From Oligoflexia bacterium (GTDB lineage: Bacteria; Bdellovibrionota; Bdellovibrionia; JABDDW01): a stretch of 64,000 nucleotides of DNA. The stretch covers positions 1 through 64,000 of the forward strand of contig JAWXAT010000031.1 of NCBI GenBank assembly GCA_034439615.1. The letters are read 5' to 3'. Shown piece after piece: positions 2,438 to 34,964 of this stretch (the stretch's first letter is position 1; each line of letters opens with the position of its first letter). The translations under genes were made by a program, and so were the position numbers. The notes under the pieces were generated by a model. That model was not told the DNA's origin. It searched no databases and was given only the letters and a program-made list of their open reading frames with translations.

Positions 2438-2636
2438 AGTAACCACAACTACTTACAAATATTATGCCCATCTATTAAGCTAAAAATTACTGACTGCACC
2501 TAGCATATTGGCTTTAACGGCTGTGACAAACACATTGAGATTAGGCTTATGAAGAACTTCTCGTCAAAAGTAACCAATAACGGCCCAGCAAAAATCAATT
2601 GTGGTATACGCGCACTGACGCGCTGCTAACGAAAAA

Positions 2637-2663
2637 GGTACCGGGTACCGATCAACCGATCAA
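2637..2663. repeat. Tandem GGTACC palindromes and CCGATCAA direct repeat
   Basis: Two GGTACC palindromes (2637-2642 and 2644-2649) are followed by two adjacent copies of CCGATCAA (2648-2655 and 2656-2663). The second copy contains the mltG stop codon. Read on the minus strand, the palindromes are followed by a run of five T, so the site could be a weak intrinsic terminator for the ast-mltG operon. The remaining roughly 200 bases up to the HEAT-like gene start show no gene. Confidence 0.4.
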
Positions 2664-3715
2664 ATCGCTTGTTTGGAGTTTTTCTTTAAACGATCGCGCC
2701 AACTTTTGCCTGCGCGTGCGCGGACATCCATTTGAAATTTTTTGACAGCGTTATTGTGCTCACCGTACGTCACGCTAAATTGATGGGTGCCGTTATTCTT
2801 GCTCACAAAATATATGTATTTTGATTCTGCAGGCTCTATGACAGCGAGCATGCTTTCTTTACCAGGGTTTGAAATGGGTCCAACGGGTAAACCTTTTCGG
2901 GTATAGGTATTATAAGGTGTTTTTGCGCGAATATCTTCTTTAGTAATGTTTTTTCTCTCAAGGGTGTGTTTGCCATACAGAATTGTTGGATCACTTTGAA
3001 GCATCATATTAATTTTTAATCGATTATGAAAAACACTGGCAATAAGTGGTCGCTCTTCAGGGGCACCCGTTTCTTTTTCTACAATGCTCGCAAGAGTTAC
3101 TACAAAGTGCATTGAGTAGCCCAACTTTTCAGCGCCAAATTTAATTTCACGATTATAAACTTCTTTAAATTTATCCACCATGGTTTTAATAATTACTCTT
3201 TCACCAGTGAAATGTTCAAAGCTGTAAGTTTCAGGGTATAAATACCCCTCGAGTGTCGGCTCATCTATACCAAGAAGCATTGCCATACGTGGGTCACGCG
3301 CTAACTTAATAAATTCATTTCTATCTACAAGATTACGACGGGCAAGATCATCAGCGATTTGATCGATGTTAAACCCCTCAGGAATATGAACCGCATGTAA
3401 AACACTTTTACCTGATGTAATAACTTTTAAAAGTTCATGGGGAGACATATTTAATTTAACTTCGTATTCACCGGCTTTTACTTTTCCCGTTTTTCTTAAC
3501 AACCTTGCCATTAATACAAATCTTTTTGCATCTTTTATTAAACCTTCTTTATAAAGTAGATCAGAGGTTTTACTAAATGACCCGGGTGAAATGAGAATAA
3601 CCTTAAAGGCTGGATCATCTGAATTTTTTGAAAACCAAAAATTTATATCTCGCACAACCTCAAAAGTTAATGCAAATCCGGCTAAGCAAAAAATAACAAT
3701 GAATAGTTTTTTCAC
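2660..3715 (-). CDS. mltG: Endolytic murein transglycosylase MltG
   Basis: 351 residues, YceG/MltG family. The enzyme cleaves nascent glycan strands next to the inner membrane and helps set strand length. Visible features are an N-terminal transmembrane segment (about 3-20), a LysM-like subdomain (about 35-100) and the catalytic core with ASIVEKETG (Glu about 213), SDPTILYG and LPVGPISNPG. The start is GTG with an AGGGA ribosome-binding site. It is the last gene of the ast-like operon, 16 bases after astD, an unusual partner for a peptidoglycan enzyme. Confidence in the family is high. Confidence 0.95.
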   Translation of the reverse strand: MKKLFIVIFCLAGFALTFEVVRDINFWFSKNSDDPAFKVILISPGSFSKTSDLLYKEGLIKDAKRFVLMARLLRKTGKVKAGEYEVKLNMSPHELLKVITSGKSVLHAVHIPEGFNIDQIADDLARRNLVDRNEFIKLARDPRMAMLLGIDEPTLEGYLYPETYSFEHFTGERVIIKTMVDKFKEVYNREIKFGAEKLGYSMHFVVTLASIVEKETGAPEERPLIASVFHNRLKINMMLQSDPTILYGKHTLERKNITKEDIRAKTPYNTYTRKGLPVGPISNPGKESMLAVIEPAESKYIYFVSKNNGTHQFSVTYGEHNNAVKKFQMDVRARAGKSWRDRLKKNSKQAI

Positions 3716-30396: not shown

Positions 30397-30482
30397 ATTT
30401 AGACCTCTTTTAACCTATAAAACTAAGGCTCAATTTGCTATATTACTCCCCAGAGTTAGATTTTTTTACTCAGGAGTAGTTC

Positions 30483-31886
30483 ATGCAGTACCGTATTTTT
30501 TCTTTTTTGCTTGTTGTCCTGTTTAGTCAATTAGCTCAAGCTCAATTTTATCACAAAGATCCCGCTCGAGGTCTTAATGTTAATATGATTACATCACCAA
30601 GTGGAATTGTTGAAGAGTGTATTTTGCCTAAAAGATTTCCAGGAATCGAATATTCTGACCGAGATCTTAAAATGGAGCAAAAACTCTGTGGCCTTGATTT
30701 TTACAATCACCCTCAGCTTGCAGTTTGTCCAAAACTAAAGAGCACAAATCCTGGCATCGAATTACATGTTGTTCCTGAAGGTTCTACAAAAGCAGCGATT
30801 GAATCAGCCAACTGCCAAGTCCCCCAATTAGGTAAAAAAATTGCAAAATATAAAAACACCATCACGTGTAGCTACACACCTGCGGCGCTTGGTTATTATC
30901 ATGTGTCTCGCATTTTAGGTGGTGTCGGAAATGTGCCACAATCTGTAGTTCGCACAATGAGTAAAGAAAACCACTTAGACGTAGTTAAAAAAGCAATTGC
31001 AGTCACTCGCGCTAAACACACACCCGGAACAATTATAAGAATCGCTTGGGAAAGACTCTGGCCTGCGGCACATGGGGCTCCCGCAAAATTTCCTAAAATT
31101 TTTGATGTCGATTTAACCTCAATTTATGGCGCACTCTCTGTAAACGTGACCGATGAAGAAAAGTATTCTGAACTTAATGGGAAGGGTTCTTACGAATCTC
31201 GTTATGTTCGCTTTAAAAATTCATCTGCCTATAATGAGGTGCAATCACTTAAACCTATTTCAGAAATGGTTGGCCCCAGCCTTCAAGAATCAGCTCAGCA
31301 AATCATTCGCATGAAAGATGTGAGTGATATGATCTTGTTAGATTATTTACTCAATCAACTAGACCGAATTGGAAATATTCATTTAAAATATTTTTGGGTT
31401 TATGTTTATCAAAACCAGTTGATCAAAGTTTCGCTTAAAGGAACACCCGCACTGCCCGACCCGGAACAAAAAACACAAATGAATTCTGTTGGCGCAGTTT
31501 TAGTTAAACAAATGATTTTGCGAGATAATGACTGTGGTGTTGCAAAAGATAATATGGCCAAACTCTCAGGCCTTTTAGACGGGGTTCATCATTTAAGCCC
31601 ACAAACATACAGACGGTTTTTATGGTTTACTTCTCAACTTCAAAATCCTGAATCACAAGAGTTTTTCAAACGTGAAACCCTTTTTACTGATAATGATCTC
31701 AAGGGTGTTGGCCGAGGACTCATAACAAATGCGCTTTTAGTAGCAAAAACCTTACAAAATCGCTGCAAACAAGGGCAATTACATTTGGATTTAGATCTAA
31801 AAGCTCACGTACAAAGCCAAAACATTCGTGATAGTCGCGAACATTGCGATTTACCCGCTAATTATAATCCCAATTTAGATAATTGA
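30483..31886 (+). CDS. Secreted protein with FAM20/PI-kinase-like catalytic signature
   Basis: 467 residues with a signal peptide ending AQA (about residue 20) and several Cys in the mature N-terminal half. No family is assigned outright. Residues 287-295 read DYLLNQLDR and 347-352 read RDNDCG. This pair resembles the catalytic loop (D-x5-N-x-D-R) and the metal-binding DNG motif of secreted FAM20C/CotH/HipA-like atypical kinases. Such enzymes phosphorylate proteins or sugars outside the cytosol. A kinase role is inferred from motifs only; no glycine loop is certain. Ribosome-binding site CAGGAG, single-gene unit, 86 bases after cdd. Confidence 0.6.
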   Translation: MQYRIFSFLLVVLFSQLAQAQFYHKDPARGLNVNMITSPSGIVEECILPKRFPGIEYSDRDLKMEQKLCGLDFYNHPQLAVCPKLKSTNPGIELHVVPEGSTKAAIESANCQVPQLGKKIAKYKNTITCSYTPAALGYYHVSRILGGVGNVPQSVVRTMSKENHLDVVKKAIAVTRAKHTPGTIIRIAWERLWPAAHGAPAKFPKIFDVDLTSIYGALSVNVTDEEKYSELNGKGSYESRYVRFKNSSAYNEVQSLKPISEMVGPSLQESAQQIIRMKDVSDMILLDYLLNQLDRIGNIHLKYFWVYVYQNQLIKVSLKGTPALPDPEQKTQMNSVGAVLVKQMILRDNDCGVAKDNMAKLSGLLDGVHHLSPQTYRRFLWFTSQLQNPESQEFFKRETLFTDNDLKGVGRGLITNALLVAKTLQNRCKQGQLHLDLDLKAHVQSQNIRDSREHCDLPANYNPNLDN

Positions 31887-32072: not shown

Positions 32073-32088
32073 GTTGCATGGATGCAAC
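32073..32088 (+). promoter_or_regulatory. Inverted repeat across the subtilase start codon
   Basis: GTTGCATGGATGCAAC has arms GTTGCAT/ATGCAAC around GG. The ATG at 32078 lies within the left arm. In mRNA it can fold as a 6-bp stem with a four-base loop that hides the start codon, next to the GGGGGAG ribosome-binding site. As DNA it could be a small operator. The upstream 31887-32072 region has no gene; AGCGG-ATAAC-CCGCT near 31917 is a short hairpin without a T-run. Confidence 0.45.
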
Positions 32089-33361
32089 CACACGGGGCTT
32101 TTTTCTTTTTTTCACCATTCTCTATCTCACAGCTTGCGGCCAAGAAAATGCAGGAAAAGTAAACACGACAAGCTTTGATTGTGCGGGACAGGCGATTTCT
32201 GACAGCTTTCTCATTCAATGGAAAGATGACGTTCCACCTGAATTTGCAGCCTATAAACTAAGTCCCGACTCAAAAGTGACCCGCTTTACTGGCGTTAACA
32301 AAACACAAATTGAAAATGAAATTCTCCATAAACATCGCAATAACTATAAAACGGCTGAACATGAATTCACTTTAGACGTTGAGGATATTCAACCCCATGC
32401 GGCCGCATGTAATACCAATCTTTCAGAACTGCCCGATTCTTGGGGCCCCATTGATATAAATGCCAGCCAAGCGTGGACAACTCTTGGCAAACAAGGCGAA
32501 GACATTATCGTAGGCATTGTAGATTCAGGGGTGGATACCCGGCATCCTCTTTTACAAGATAATATCTGGATCAATACTGGTGAAATTGCTGGAAACGGAA
32601 TTGACGATGATCAAAATGGCTACATTGATGACCACAAAGGCTTTAATTTTGCTGGAATGAATTCTGATGTCATTAGCGGTTCTACCCACGGCACCCATGT
32701 GGCAGGAATTGTCGCAGGTAAAACATCTGCTTCAACGAATAACTTCACCGGTGTTGCGCCAAAGGCGAAGATTATGCCGCTTAAATTTATCCATGCTAAT
32801 TCTGGGTCGGTAGGTGATGCCATAAAAGCGATGGAATATGCCCGACGCCATGGCGCTAAGATTATTAATGCTAGTTGGGGTGGGGATTTATGCAGTGATG
32901 TTTTAAAAGACGCCATTGTGGCCGCAACTGTATCCGGTACCGTGTTTGTTAATGCCTCCGGAAATGCTGGTAAAGATTTAGTTCGTGCACCTGAATGGCC
33001 CGCTGTTTATCAGCTAGCAGGTAAAATTACAGTAGGGGCTTATAATCTGAATCAACGCTTATCTGGTTTTTCAAACTACGGGGATTTAGTAGATCTTGCG
33101 GCACCAGGGGAGAGCATCTTAAGTACTGTGCCCCCTCAAGTAGGTACAGCACAAGGTAAGATGTGCGCCATGAGTGGAACAAGTATGGCCACCCCATTTG
33201 TCGCAGGTGTATCAGCACTCTTATTTTCTTATAAACCTTCAGCCACACCCACTGAAATTGCAACAGCCATCAGCGCAAGTGTTGTAACTGGCCAGTATGG
33301 CGTTAGAACCAAAGGCAAGCTCAATGCACTGGGTGCAGCCCAATACTTAATGAGCCATTAA
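32078..33361 (+). CDS. Subtilisin-family (S8) serine protease lipoprotein
   Basis: 427 residues. A hydrophobic leader ends LTAC-GQE, a lipobox, so a lipid-anchored envelope protease is predicted. A propeptide-like region spans about 25-125. The catalytic triad is complete: Asp in GIVDSGVDTRHP, His in THGTHVAGIVAG and Ser in MSGTSMATPFVAG, with oxyanion Asn in NASGNAG. Sequence around DDDQNGYIDDHKGFN is typical of bacterial S8 lipoproteins with calcium sites. It is convergent with the next gene, four bases away. Confidence 0.93.
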   Translation: MDATTRGFFLFFTILYLTACGQENAGKVNTTSFDCAGQAISDSFLIQWKDDVPPEFAAYKLSPDSKVTRFTGVNKTQIENEILHKHRNNYKTAEHEFTLDVEDIQPHAAACNTNLSELPDSWGPIDINASQAWTTLGKQGEDIIVGIVDSGVDTRHPLLQDNIWINTGEIAGNGIDDDQNGYIDDHKGFNFAGMNSDVISGSTHGTHVAGIVAGKTSASTNNFTGVAPKAKIMPLKFIHANSGSVGDAIKAMEYARRHGAKIINASWGGDLCSDVLKDAIVAATVSGTVFVNASGNAGKDLVRAPEWPAVYQLAGKITVGAYNLNQRLSGFSNYGDLVDLAAPGESILSTVPPQVGTAQGKMCAMSGTSMATPFVAGVSALLFSYKPSATPTEIATAISASVVTGQYGVRTKGKLNALGAAQYLMSH

Positions 33362-33365
33362 TTTT

Positions 33366-34886
33366 TTAGTGGTTTTTAAACCAAGGGGTTTGAACTATGG
33401 CGGAAAGATCTTCGCAGTAAACCTTTTCATCTACTGCGGCATTACACATTCCCTTATTATTTCGAACAGCCTCTAAAGTCGAGCGTGCCACGTGGAACTC
33501 GTGGCGACGATAATTATCTGATTCAAGTCGCAACAACAAAGGACCCTGTGGATCACGCCTTAAATAGTTAACTAGCTGACGCATGCGAAAGAGATCTTCA
33601 GATATAGAATCAAAATAATAAAACTGCGCTAGAGAGCTCCACGTAACTTCGCCGCCCTCGGGTAATTCGATAAAACCCAAAAGATTTGAATTAGCAGCTT
33701 GTTGAAAATATGTTCTTGAACAGTACTTATCGCCCATTTTTAAACAAAGCGTGCCGAGCATAAAGGCCTTTTCACCTTGCGACCAACCCCATTTTTCAAC
33801 AGCCTCTTCTTTAATTTTTCTAAATAGAAAAATTCTTGTTCCAACTTGAAAGTCATTCATAAAACCTTCACCTGGATTTTCATAATTTAATTTTGCTGGC
33901 GAACTTTCACACGATTCGCTTTGAACCCGAGCTTTGTCTAATAACTCGGTGTTTTCAGGAATTCCCGCTAAATGAAACGTCTCGTGCAAAAGTGTGTCAC
34001 CAAGTTCACTTCCGCAGCGACTTAAAGCTAAATTTATACGAGGTTGAGTTACAAAAAAACCCTCATTAAATGGCAATGACGACATTGCACACGCATCGGC
34101 ATTCATTGATGGGCGTGCTCTACAATCAATAATGGGTTGTTGTAATAGCGCTACTAATAATCTTGAAGCTTGGGTTTTATTTTGCTCCATCCAACAAGTC
34201 AGTTTGGGTTCAATTTCAGCCAATGCATCTTCAATTTTCACTCGTTCATTAAAGCTGCAATTGGTTGCATATTTAAAATTAAGAGCACTTCCGTTAAAAT
34301 CTGAGATTTGAGCAACAGATGAAAGATCTCGCGGCGTAATTTTTGATTCTAATCCCTTTGATAACTTTTCAAGCAACGTAGAAATCCCCTCAACACTCCA
34401 CGCGGGAACTTCACGCAACTTTAAACCTGCGGCGGGAATTGCGATTTTTCCAAAATTTATTTTCATAGGCTTTGAACTTCGACTACGCCTTCGCTTCTTT
34501 TTAAATTCTACGATCTTTTGAATGGAACCATCACTCCAGGTGATTTTTTCGCCATCTTGTATGACACCCGTGCGCGCTTTTTCTCCGTCAAAATCTACGA
34601 TACGCCTATCGGCTAAAACCAAAATAGCTCGTGTTGGCTTACCTAAGCGATCGGCTTTGAACCCCGCCCAGCGAGCACCAACTGAGCGTTCTAGGATTCC
34701 TGTGGGGGCTTCATCAAAATCGTCGTCTGATCTTTCCCAAATTTCTACCCAATGACCGGTTTCGTCTTCTTCGGTCTCATGGGGAAGTTCTAATGATGAT
34801 TCAGGCAAAAACCACCAACTTAAAGTGGCGGGTTCTGCCGTGGCAACGCTGGGTGTCAATATGAGTAAGAAAATAAAATGAATCAT
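33366..34886 (-). CDS. Secreted protein with HExxH metal-binding motif
   Basis: 506 residues from the ATG at 34886, which gives a signal peptide ending ATAEP; a TTG 13 codons upstream (34925) keeps the frame but adds a non-signal stretch. Residues about 310-320 contain [10 protein letters not shown], an HExxH zinc-protease motif, with Cys pairs around it (SFNERVK, CRARP, CAMSS). The C-terminal part is helical and TPR-like ([10 protein letters not shown]-type). No family was recognised. Peptidase activity is inferred from the motif. It ends four bases from the subtilase, so the two envelope proteases are tail to tail. Confidence 0.6.
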
Positions 34887-34964
34887 GTAATGAACAACTA
34901 CATCAGGGGAAGTACTTAGTTTCAAGTCGTAATCGAAAAAATGTTGGAAATAAGAGGGGATACC

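Follow-up and report, generated by a model that had tools for sequence, protein, structure and literature searches.

A probably secreted protein with a FAM20-like kinase fold from an Oligoflexia bacterium, and its bacterial relatives with linked phosphatase-like genes

The window, the whole 64,000-nucleotide stretch of Oligoflexia bacterium DNA that was analysed, carries an uninterrupted 467-aa open reading frame encoding a FAM20-like kinase-fold protein, whose parts are collected in Table 1. Read by eye from the translation, its N-terminus, MQYRIFSFLLVVLFSQLAQA followed by Q, is a typical Sec signal peptide of the AxA type, which supports the secretion proposed in the first-pass annotation of this DNA; the N-termini of most relatives are hydrophobic too. 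That annotation had assigned the protein to no clear family, and indeed no Pfam or NCBIfam match was obtained at E<=10, nor did a single-sequence phmmer search of the PDB return a match. The gene is flanked by a nucleoside-catabolism cluster upstream and a subtilase downstream, both of which were rejected as kinase partners because they are missing from the recurrent neighbour clusters described below. The subtilase (window 32078-33361, +; Peptidase_S8, E 7e-54) lies directly downstream of the kinase gene and has a lipoprotein-like N-terminus. At 33366-34925 (-), the window also encodes a 519-aa secreted protein that contains HETFHLAG, a zinc-peptidase-like HExxH motif, and has no Pfam or NCBIfam match.

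Table 1. Coordinates of the kinase-fold gene and its proposed parts, in positions of the window
Feature	Position	Strand	Basis
FAM20-like kinase-fold protein gene, 467 aa	30483..31886	+	ORF, relatives, AlphaFold2 model, Foldseek
Putative ribosome-binding site aggag, 6 bases 5' of ATG	30472..30476	+	read from sequence
Putative Sec signal peptide, residues 1-20 (AQA, then Q)	30483..30542	+	read from translation
K124, proposed ATP-phosphate Lys, end of beta strand 119-124	30852..30854	+	invariant in A1 and A2; strand from model; role inferred
C129, proposed disulfide partner of C351	30867..30869	+	Cys co-occurrence
alphaC-like helix and next strand, AALGYYHVSRILGGVGNVPQSVVR, matched to a FAM20C stretch (22 residues)	30882..30953	+	hhalign
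Catalytic-loop motif D287-YLLNQL-D294-R295-IG-N298	31341..31376	+	invariance in 30 + 50 sequences
Metal-binding (DFG-equivalent) motif D348-N349-D350-C351-G352	31524..31538	+	invariance; G352 in 49/50
C351, within the DNDCG motif	31533-31535	+	proposed disulfide with C129

Relatives show 25-46% identity. A genome search, confirmed by profile search, recovered them in 27 of 60 related genomes. A wider scan of one genome per species over 84,980 species yielded 114 candidate relatives, 80 of which were retained, from Bdellovibrionota, Bradyrhizobium, Rhodobacteraceae, Gammaproteobacteria, Desulfobulbaceae/Desulfocapsa (Desulfobulbales) and Acidobacteriota. Across two alignments, A1 (30 sequences) and A2 (50 sequences), K124, D287, Q292, D294, R295, N298, D348, N349, D350 and H370 are invariant. 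All of these except K124 and H370 belong to the catalytic-loop and metal-binding motifs, which the first-pass annotation had recognised as DYLLNQLDR (residues 287-295) and, 52 residues on (R295 to R347), RDNDCG (347-352); their retention in 30/30 and 50/50 homologues argues that the two Asp motifs are not chance occurrences. Six cysteines are near-invariant (46, 69, 82, 111, 428 and 455), as expected for an exported, disulfide-bonded protein, and one clade has an extra pair, C129 and C351, whose presence is perfectly correlated (A1: both in 22, neither in 8; A2: both in 14, neither in 36; no discordant sequence), a correlation that is partly owed to shared ancestry.

The kinase tree comprises two large groups: one, in which DNDCG or DNDGG predominates, holds the window protein, Bdellovibrio and Bradyrhizobium, and the other, with DNDAG, holds Rhodobacteraceae, Gammaproteobacteria, Desulfobulbales and some Bdellovibrionota. 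The Bradyrhizobium copies (loci L032, L035, L036 and L037, each a kinase plus a DSP-like gene) nest within Bdellovibrionota, which suggests horizontal transfer. The bacterial secreted FAM20-like kinase family is widespread and hitherto undescribed in the literature searched: no description of it was found in that literature or in the libraries searched, with subscription papers and preprints lying outside their coverage.

The AlphaFold2 model, built from the 50-sequence alignment, reached a pLDDT of 92.0 and a pTM of 0.92. When compared with the PDB by Foldseek, it gave just three matches with E<1e-3, all to Fam20C, namely 5yh0 (7.0e-5 and 1.0e-4) and 4kqa (3.9e-4), with probability 1.00 and modest TM-scores of 0.34-0.42; the next match was PI3K, at E 0.34. 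Structure prediction had been named beforehand as a check on the proposed kinase, and a kinase-type fold with Fam20C matches is what it returned. Neither of the two outcomes named in advance as refuting the proposal, a fold unlike protein kinases and Asp motifs that vary among homologues, was observed. HMMER profile searches of the PDB with the family alignments found nothing, and the Pfam Fam20C profile (PF06702) matched none of the 30 A1 or 50 A2 members and was over its cut-off in 0 of 99 genomes of the class. Given the modest TM-scores and the lack of a Pfam Fam20C match, the protein is a distant relative of FAM20 rather than a member.

Profile-profile comparison (hhalign) of the family profile with a profile from five FAM20 sequences aligned YYHVSRILGGVGNVPQSVVR with a 19-residue stretch of FAM20C, forming an alphaC-like block that scored 29.6 against a mean of 14.8 (sd 2.8, maximum 24.3) in 60 column shuffles; the significance is confined to this block, the global score against FAM20 being no higher than the shuffled level. 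The hhalign P values were 8e-4 to 4e-3 for FAM20, 0.03-0.06 for CotH and 0.1-0.5 for HipA, and a gap-free manual alignment sets MKDVSDMILLDYLLNQLDR against FAM20C ILDVMDMTIFDFLMGNMDR. The remote homology to FAM20 is visible only through profile-profile comparison and fold, and sequence similarity to any kinase falls below HMMER detection, as would be expected if the fold likeness were coincidental and the protein not kinase-like. We consider such a coincidence highly improbable, however, as the high-confidence model matches FAM20 alone, the profile score exceeds all 60 shuffles, and invariant catalytic residues stand in kinase order. The protein is very probably secreted, with a FAM20-like fold.

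Like the FAM20C/FAM20 secretory-pathway kinases (PF06702; 4kqa, 5yh0, 5xom), it combines this fold and secretion with a Cys-rich sequence, C-terminal helices, an alphaC-like helix followed by VP...R, a D-x6-D-R catalytic motif and a D-N-x-x-G metal motif. Unlike them, it is bacterial, belongs to a family whose genes are linked to phosphatase genes, and lacks the four FAM20 disulfides; its Cys positions differ, and 4 of the 6 conserved cysteines precede the FAM20-core-aligned stretch. The first-pass annotation had grouped the protein with HipA and CotH kinases as well. Its FAM20-like character is borne out by Fam20C being alone significant in the PDB and giving the best profile score, whereas the wider grouping was not upheld: the CotH (PF08757) and HipA_C (PF07804) profiles matched neither the window protein nor any A1 or A2 member, and no CotH or HipA structure appeared among the best 50 PDB fold matches listed. 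HipA_C kinases share a kinase-like fold and the same order of Asp motifs, but HipA is cytosolic. CotH proteins, which gave a weaker profile-profile score than FAM20, are bacterial too, and their atypical kinase fold is a distant relative of that of FAM20C (PMC7821199). A search of the window genome with HipA_C found none, but a CotH-family gene there passes the Pfam cut-off (G000:C30:1497-2348, L128; E 4.8e-22), which gives this genome at least two FAM20-related kinase-fold proteins. The expectation that such a kinase would be new in a predator-type bacterium therefore holds for the present family, as unreported in the literature searched, but is weakened by this CotH-family protein. In Bdellovibrio-like genomes, proteins of ~750-770 aa (L111, L112, L114 and L115) match the Pfam Fam20C model weakly around its catalytic motif, without reaching the cut-off (E 4e-4 to 3e-3), and may represent a further kinase-fold family.

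Turning to the active site, we infer from sequence that D294 is the probable counterpart of human FAM20C D458 and D348 that of D478, the DFG Asp of FAM20C (PMC5413348). The motifs thus stand in the order of FAM20C, as had been claimed, but not at its spacing: 54 residues separate D294 from D348, compared with 20 between D458 and D478, because a beta-hairpin and a helix are inserted between the two Asp. Asp350, initially named as the metal Asp, is invariant, but a D-N-G-x-G alignment assigns that role to Asp348, which is invariant as well. In FAM20C the Kbeta3-Kalpha3 loop before alphaC ends in an essential metal-binding Glu (ceFam20 E213), which is replaced by Gln258 in the pseudokinase FAM20A (PMC5413348). 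This Glu is not conserved in the present family: the counterpart positions 129-131 are C/G/A, S/T and Y/F in A1 and A2, the E213-equivalent place being taken by Ser or Thr in almost every sequence with no acidic substitute close by, and for this reason the candidate counts only as a putative enzyme. A further difference from FAM20 is the invariant Asn at position +4 from the catalytic Asp (N298). In ordinary kinases the catalytic-loop Asn holds metal, and by analogy N298 may take the metal in place of the Glu. K124, a candidate counterpart of the ATP-phosphate-binding Lys of FAM20C (K271), is placed by the AlphaFold2 model at a strand end ahead of the alphaC-like helix. The beta3-alphaC loop and the DFG-equivalent motif lie together in kinases, and the occurrence of C129, which adjoins the E213-equivalent place, and C351 only ever together supports the predicted closeness of this loop and the DND motif.

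We then examined the neighbourhoods of 80 distant loci by clustering flanking genes, followed by profile searches. In 60 of the 80, a set that includes many near-identical Ruegeria and some contigs ending near the kinase, the kinase gene has a DSP-like and/or a calcineurin-like phosphoesterase gene nearby (DSP-like in 50, phosphoesterase alone in 10 more, neither in 20). The first partner is a previously undescribed secreted DSP-fold family with the P-loop HCxxGxH[SA]SG (for example L031 6823-7629, -; L053 7331-7975, +; L037 7103-7780, +), and the second is a secreted calcineurin-like phosphoesterase over the Pfam cut-off. Their order and orientation vary: in Rhodobacteraceae the DSP-like gene precedes the kinase on the same strand, in Bdellovibrio it is divergent, and in Bradyrhizobium erythrophlei it lies downstream, and the linkage recurs with different gene orders in Bdellovibrionota. 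Two kinase paralogues are present in several Bdellovibrio-genus genomes: a long one of 558-583 aa, whose gene stood with that of the phosphoesterase in 6/6 genomes checked, and another that is often paired with the DSP-like gene. Strong DSP-like matches occur in 16 of the 60 related genomes, all 16 kinase-positive and 14 with the genes adjacent, a co-occurrence with a hypergeometric P of 8.7e-8 across the 60 genomes when phylogeny is ignored.

The DSP-like model (pLDDT 78.4) matches TpbA best in the PDB, along with Cdc14, PFA-DSP1 and Siw14 (E about 3e-4 to 1e-3). TpbA is a periplasmic phosphatase whose targets are phosphotyrosines in a periplasmic domain (PMC4409338). The partner resembles TpbA-type periplasmic DSPs in its fold, in export and in the invariant HC and G of its P-loop, but it departs from the HCx5R motif in that the catalytic Arg is replaced by Ser or Ala in all aligned members; His at C+5, one position before the lost Arg, and Ser at C+7 are invariant in these members. 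Loss of this Arg and, as in FAM20A, of the FAM20C metal Glu would suit a pseudokinase or a protein of other chemistry (a nucleotide-binding scaffold, AMPylation or similar) like FAM20A or SelO, accompanied by phosphatase-like proteins that are non-canonical too. We regard this as unlikely, since K124, D294, N298, D348 and D350 are invariant across phyla, a conservation that a pure scaffold would seldom show; N298 could act as a canonical metal ligand, and the calcineurin-like phosphoesterase that forms the second partner is over the Pfam cut-off. We prefer to view the gene product as probably an exported, disulfide-stabilised enzyme with a protein-kinase-like fold in its FAM20 form.

In Celeribacter (L094 7224-12017), genes for the DSP-like protein, the kinase, the phosphoesterase, a DUF4956-like membrane protein and a phytase-like/SdiA-regulated propeller lie in a row on one strand, and at L086 (5334-9347 and downstream) such genes are found again, arranged differently. 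The L094 membrane protein has no Pfam match, whereas its homologues at L086 and L061 gave weak matches to DUF4956 that fall short of the cut-off. Next to pel polysaccharide clusters of Gram-positives, DUF4956 and CotH genes stand together (PMC7112168), and a DUF4956 neighbourhood is in this respect common to CotH and the present family, both related to FAM20. In Rhodobacteraceae and Gammaproteobacteria, genes for secreted proteins that combine bacterial SH3 with PPC or META domains turn up repeatedly at distances of a few kb from the kinase (L046 11324-12310, L051 6443-7648, L048 3688-4905), and their products are possible kinase substrates. The propeller and DUF4956-like protein of these roseobacter operons, together with the pel association, raise the question of whether a sugar, polysaccharide or inositol phosphate, and not a protein, is the substrate; FAM20B, of the same fold, phosphorylates xylose, and the DSP-like model matches PFA-DSP1 and the inositol-pyrophosphate phosphatase Siw14. 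No glycan or inositol gene consistently adjoins the kinase, however, and none lies beside the window copy, and we hold a substrate of this kind to be rather unlikely.

The window genome contains one member of the kinase family. Searches found no DSP-like gene in the window or in its genome, an informative result because one of them detects DSP-like genes in 16 relatives, and with this partner missing the window copy is solitary. At the nearest relative locus, L050, a phosphoesterase gene (2512-3435) lies divergently upstream of the kinase; no copy of it was detectable in the window genome, in a search that had no positive control.

Sequence, model and gene linkage together lead us to favour, with somewhat better than even confidence, an active phosphotransferase acting on an extracytoplasmic substrate. 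Phosphate from metal-ATP would go to an acceptor, either protein or glycan, located in the periplasm or outside the cell, with K124 holding the phosphates, D294 serving as base, and N298 and D348 holding metal in place of the Glu of FAM20C. In most relatives the adjoining phosphatases would reverse or limit this phosphorylation, while in the window genome the kinase would work alone, with no DSP-like partner. We advance such reversible phosphorylation outside the cytoplasm by linked kinase and phosphatases, in most relatives, only tentatively. Little ATP is expected in the periplasm, and this scarcity, the missing Glu, the modest TM-scores, the lack of a Pfam Fam20C match and the Arg-less DSP-like partner all count against an active enzyme with linked phosphatases. 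So do the two partners not found in the window genome and the 20 of 80 loci that have neither phosphatase, although contig ends cut some of these loci short. The ATP problem would be solved if the protein were not a periplasmic enzyme but an effector delivered by predators into prey, where ATP is available, and many family members do come from Bdellovibrionota. Yet non-predatory Rhodobacteraceae, Thiotrichaceae and Desulfobulbaceae also commonly carry the family, in many cases beside similar partners, so that a role in predation only cannot explain it, and we judge delivery into prey to be quite improbable.

Returning to the phosphotransferase, it may belong, as a possibility we put at less than even, to a widespread bacterial system in which a secreted FAM20-like kinase, unusual in its metal site, is joined to two further secreted proteins, a calcineurin-like phosphatase and a DSP-like protein whose active-site signature is new; to these roseobacters add the DUF4956-like protein and the phytase-like propeller. 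To our knowledge, hardly any kinases are known to work outside the cytoplasm of bacteria. The family puts names to candidate kinases and to their phosphatase partners in bacteria that can be cultured (roseobacters, Bradyrhizobium and Bdellovibrio), and thereby makes reversible extracytoplasmic phosphorylation in bacteria a directly testable question; it also allows the origin of the FAM20 kinases of animals to be viewed against a bacterial relative.
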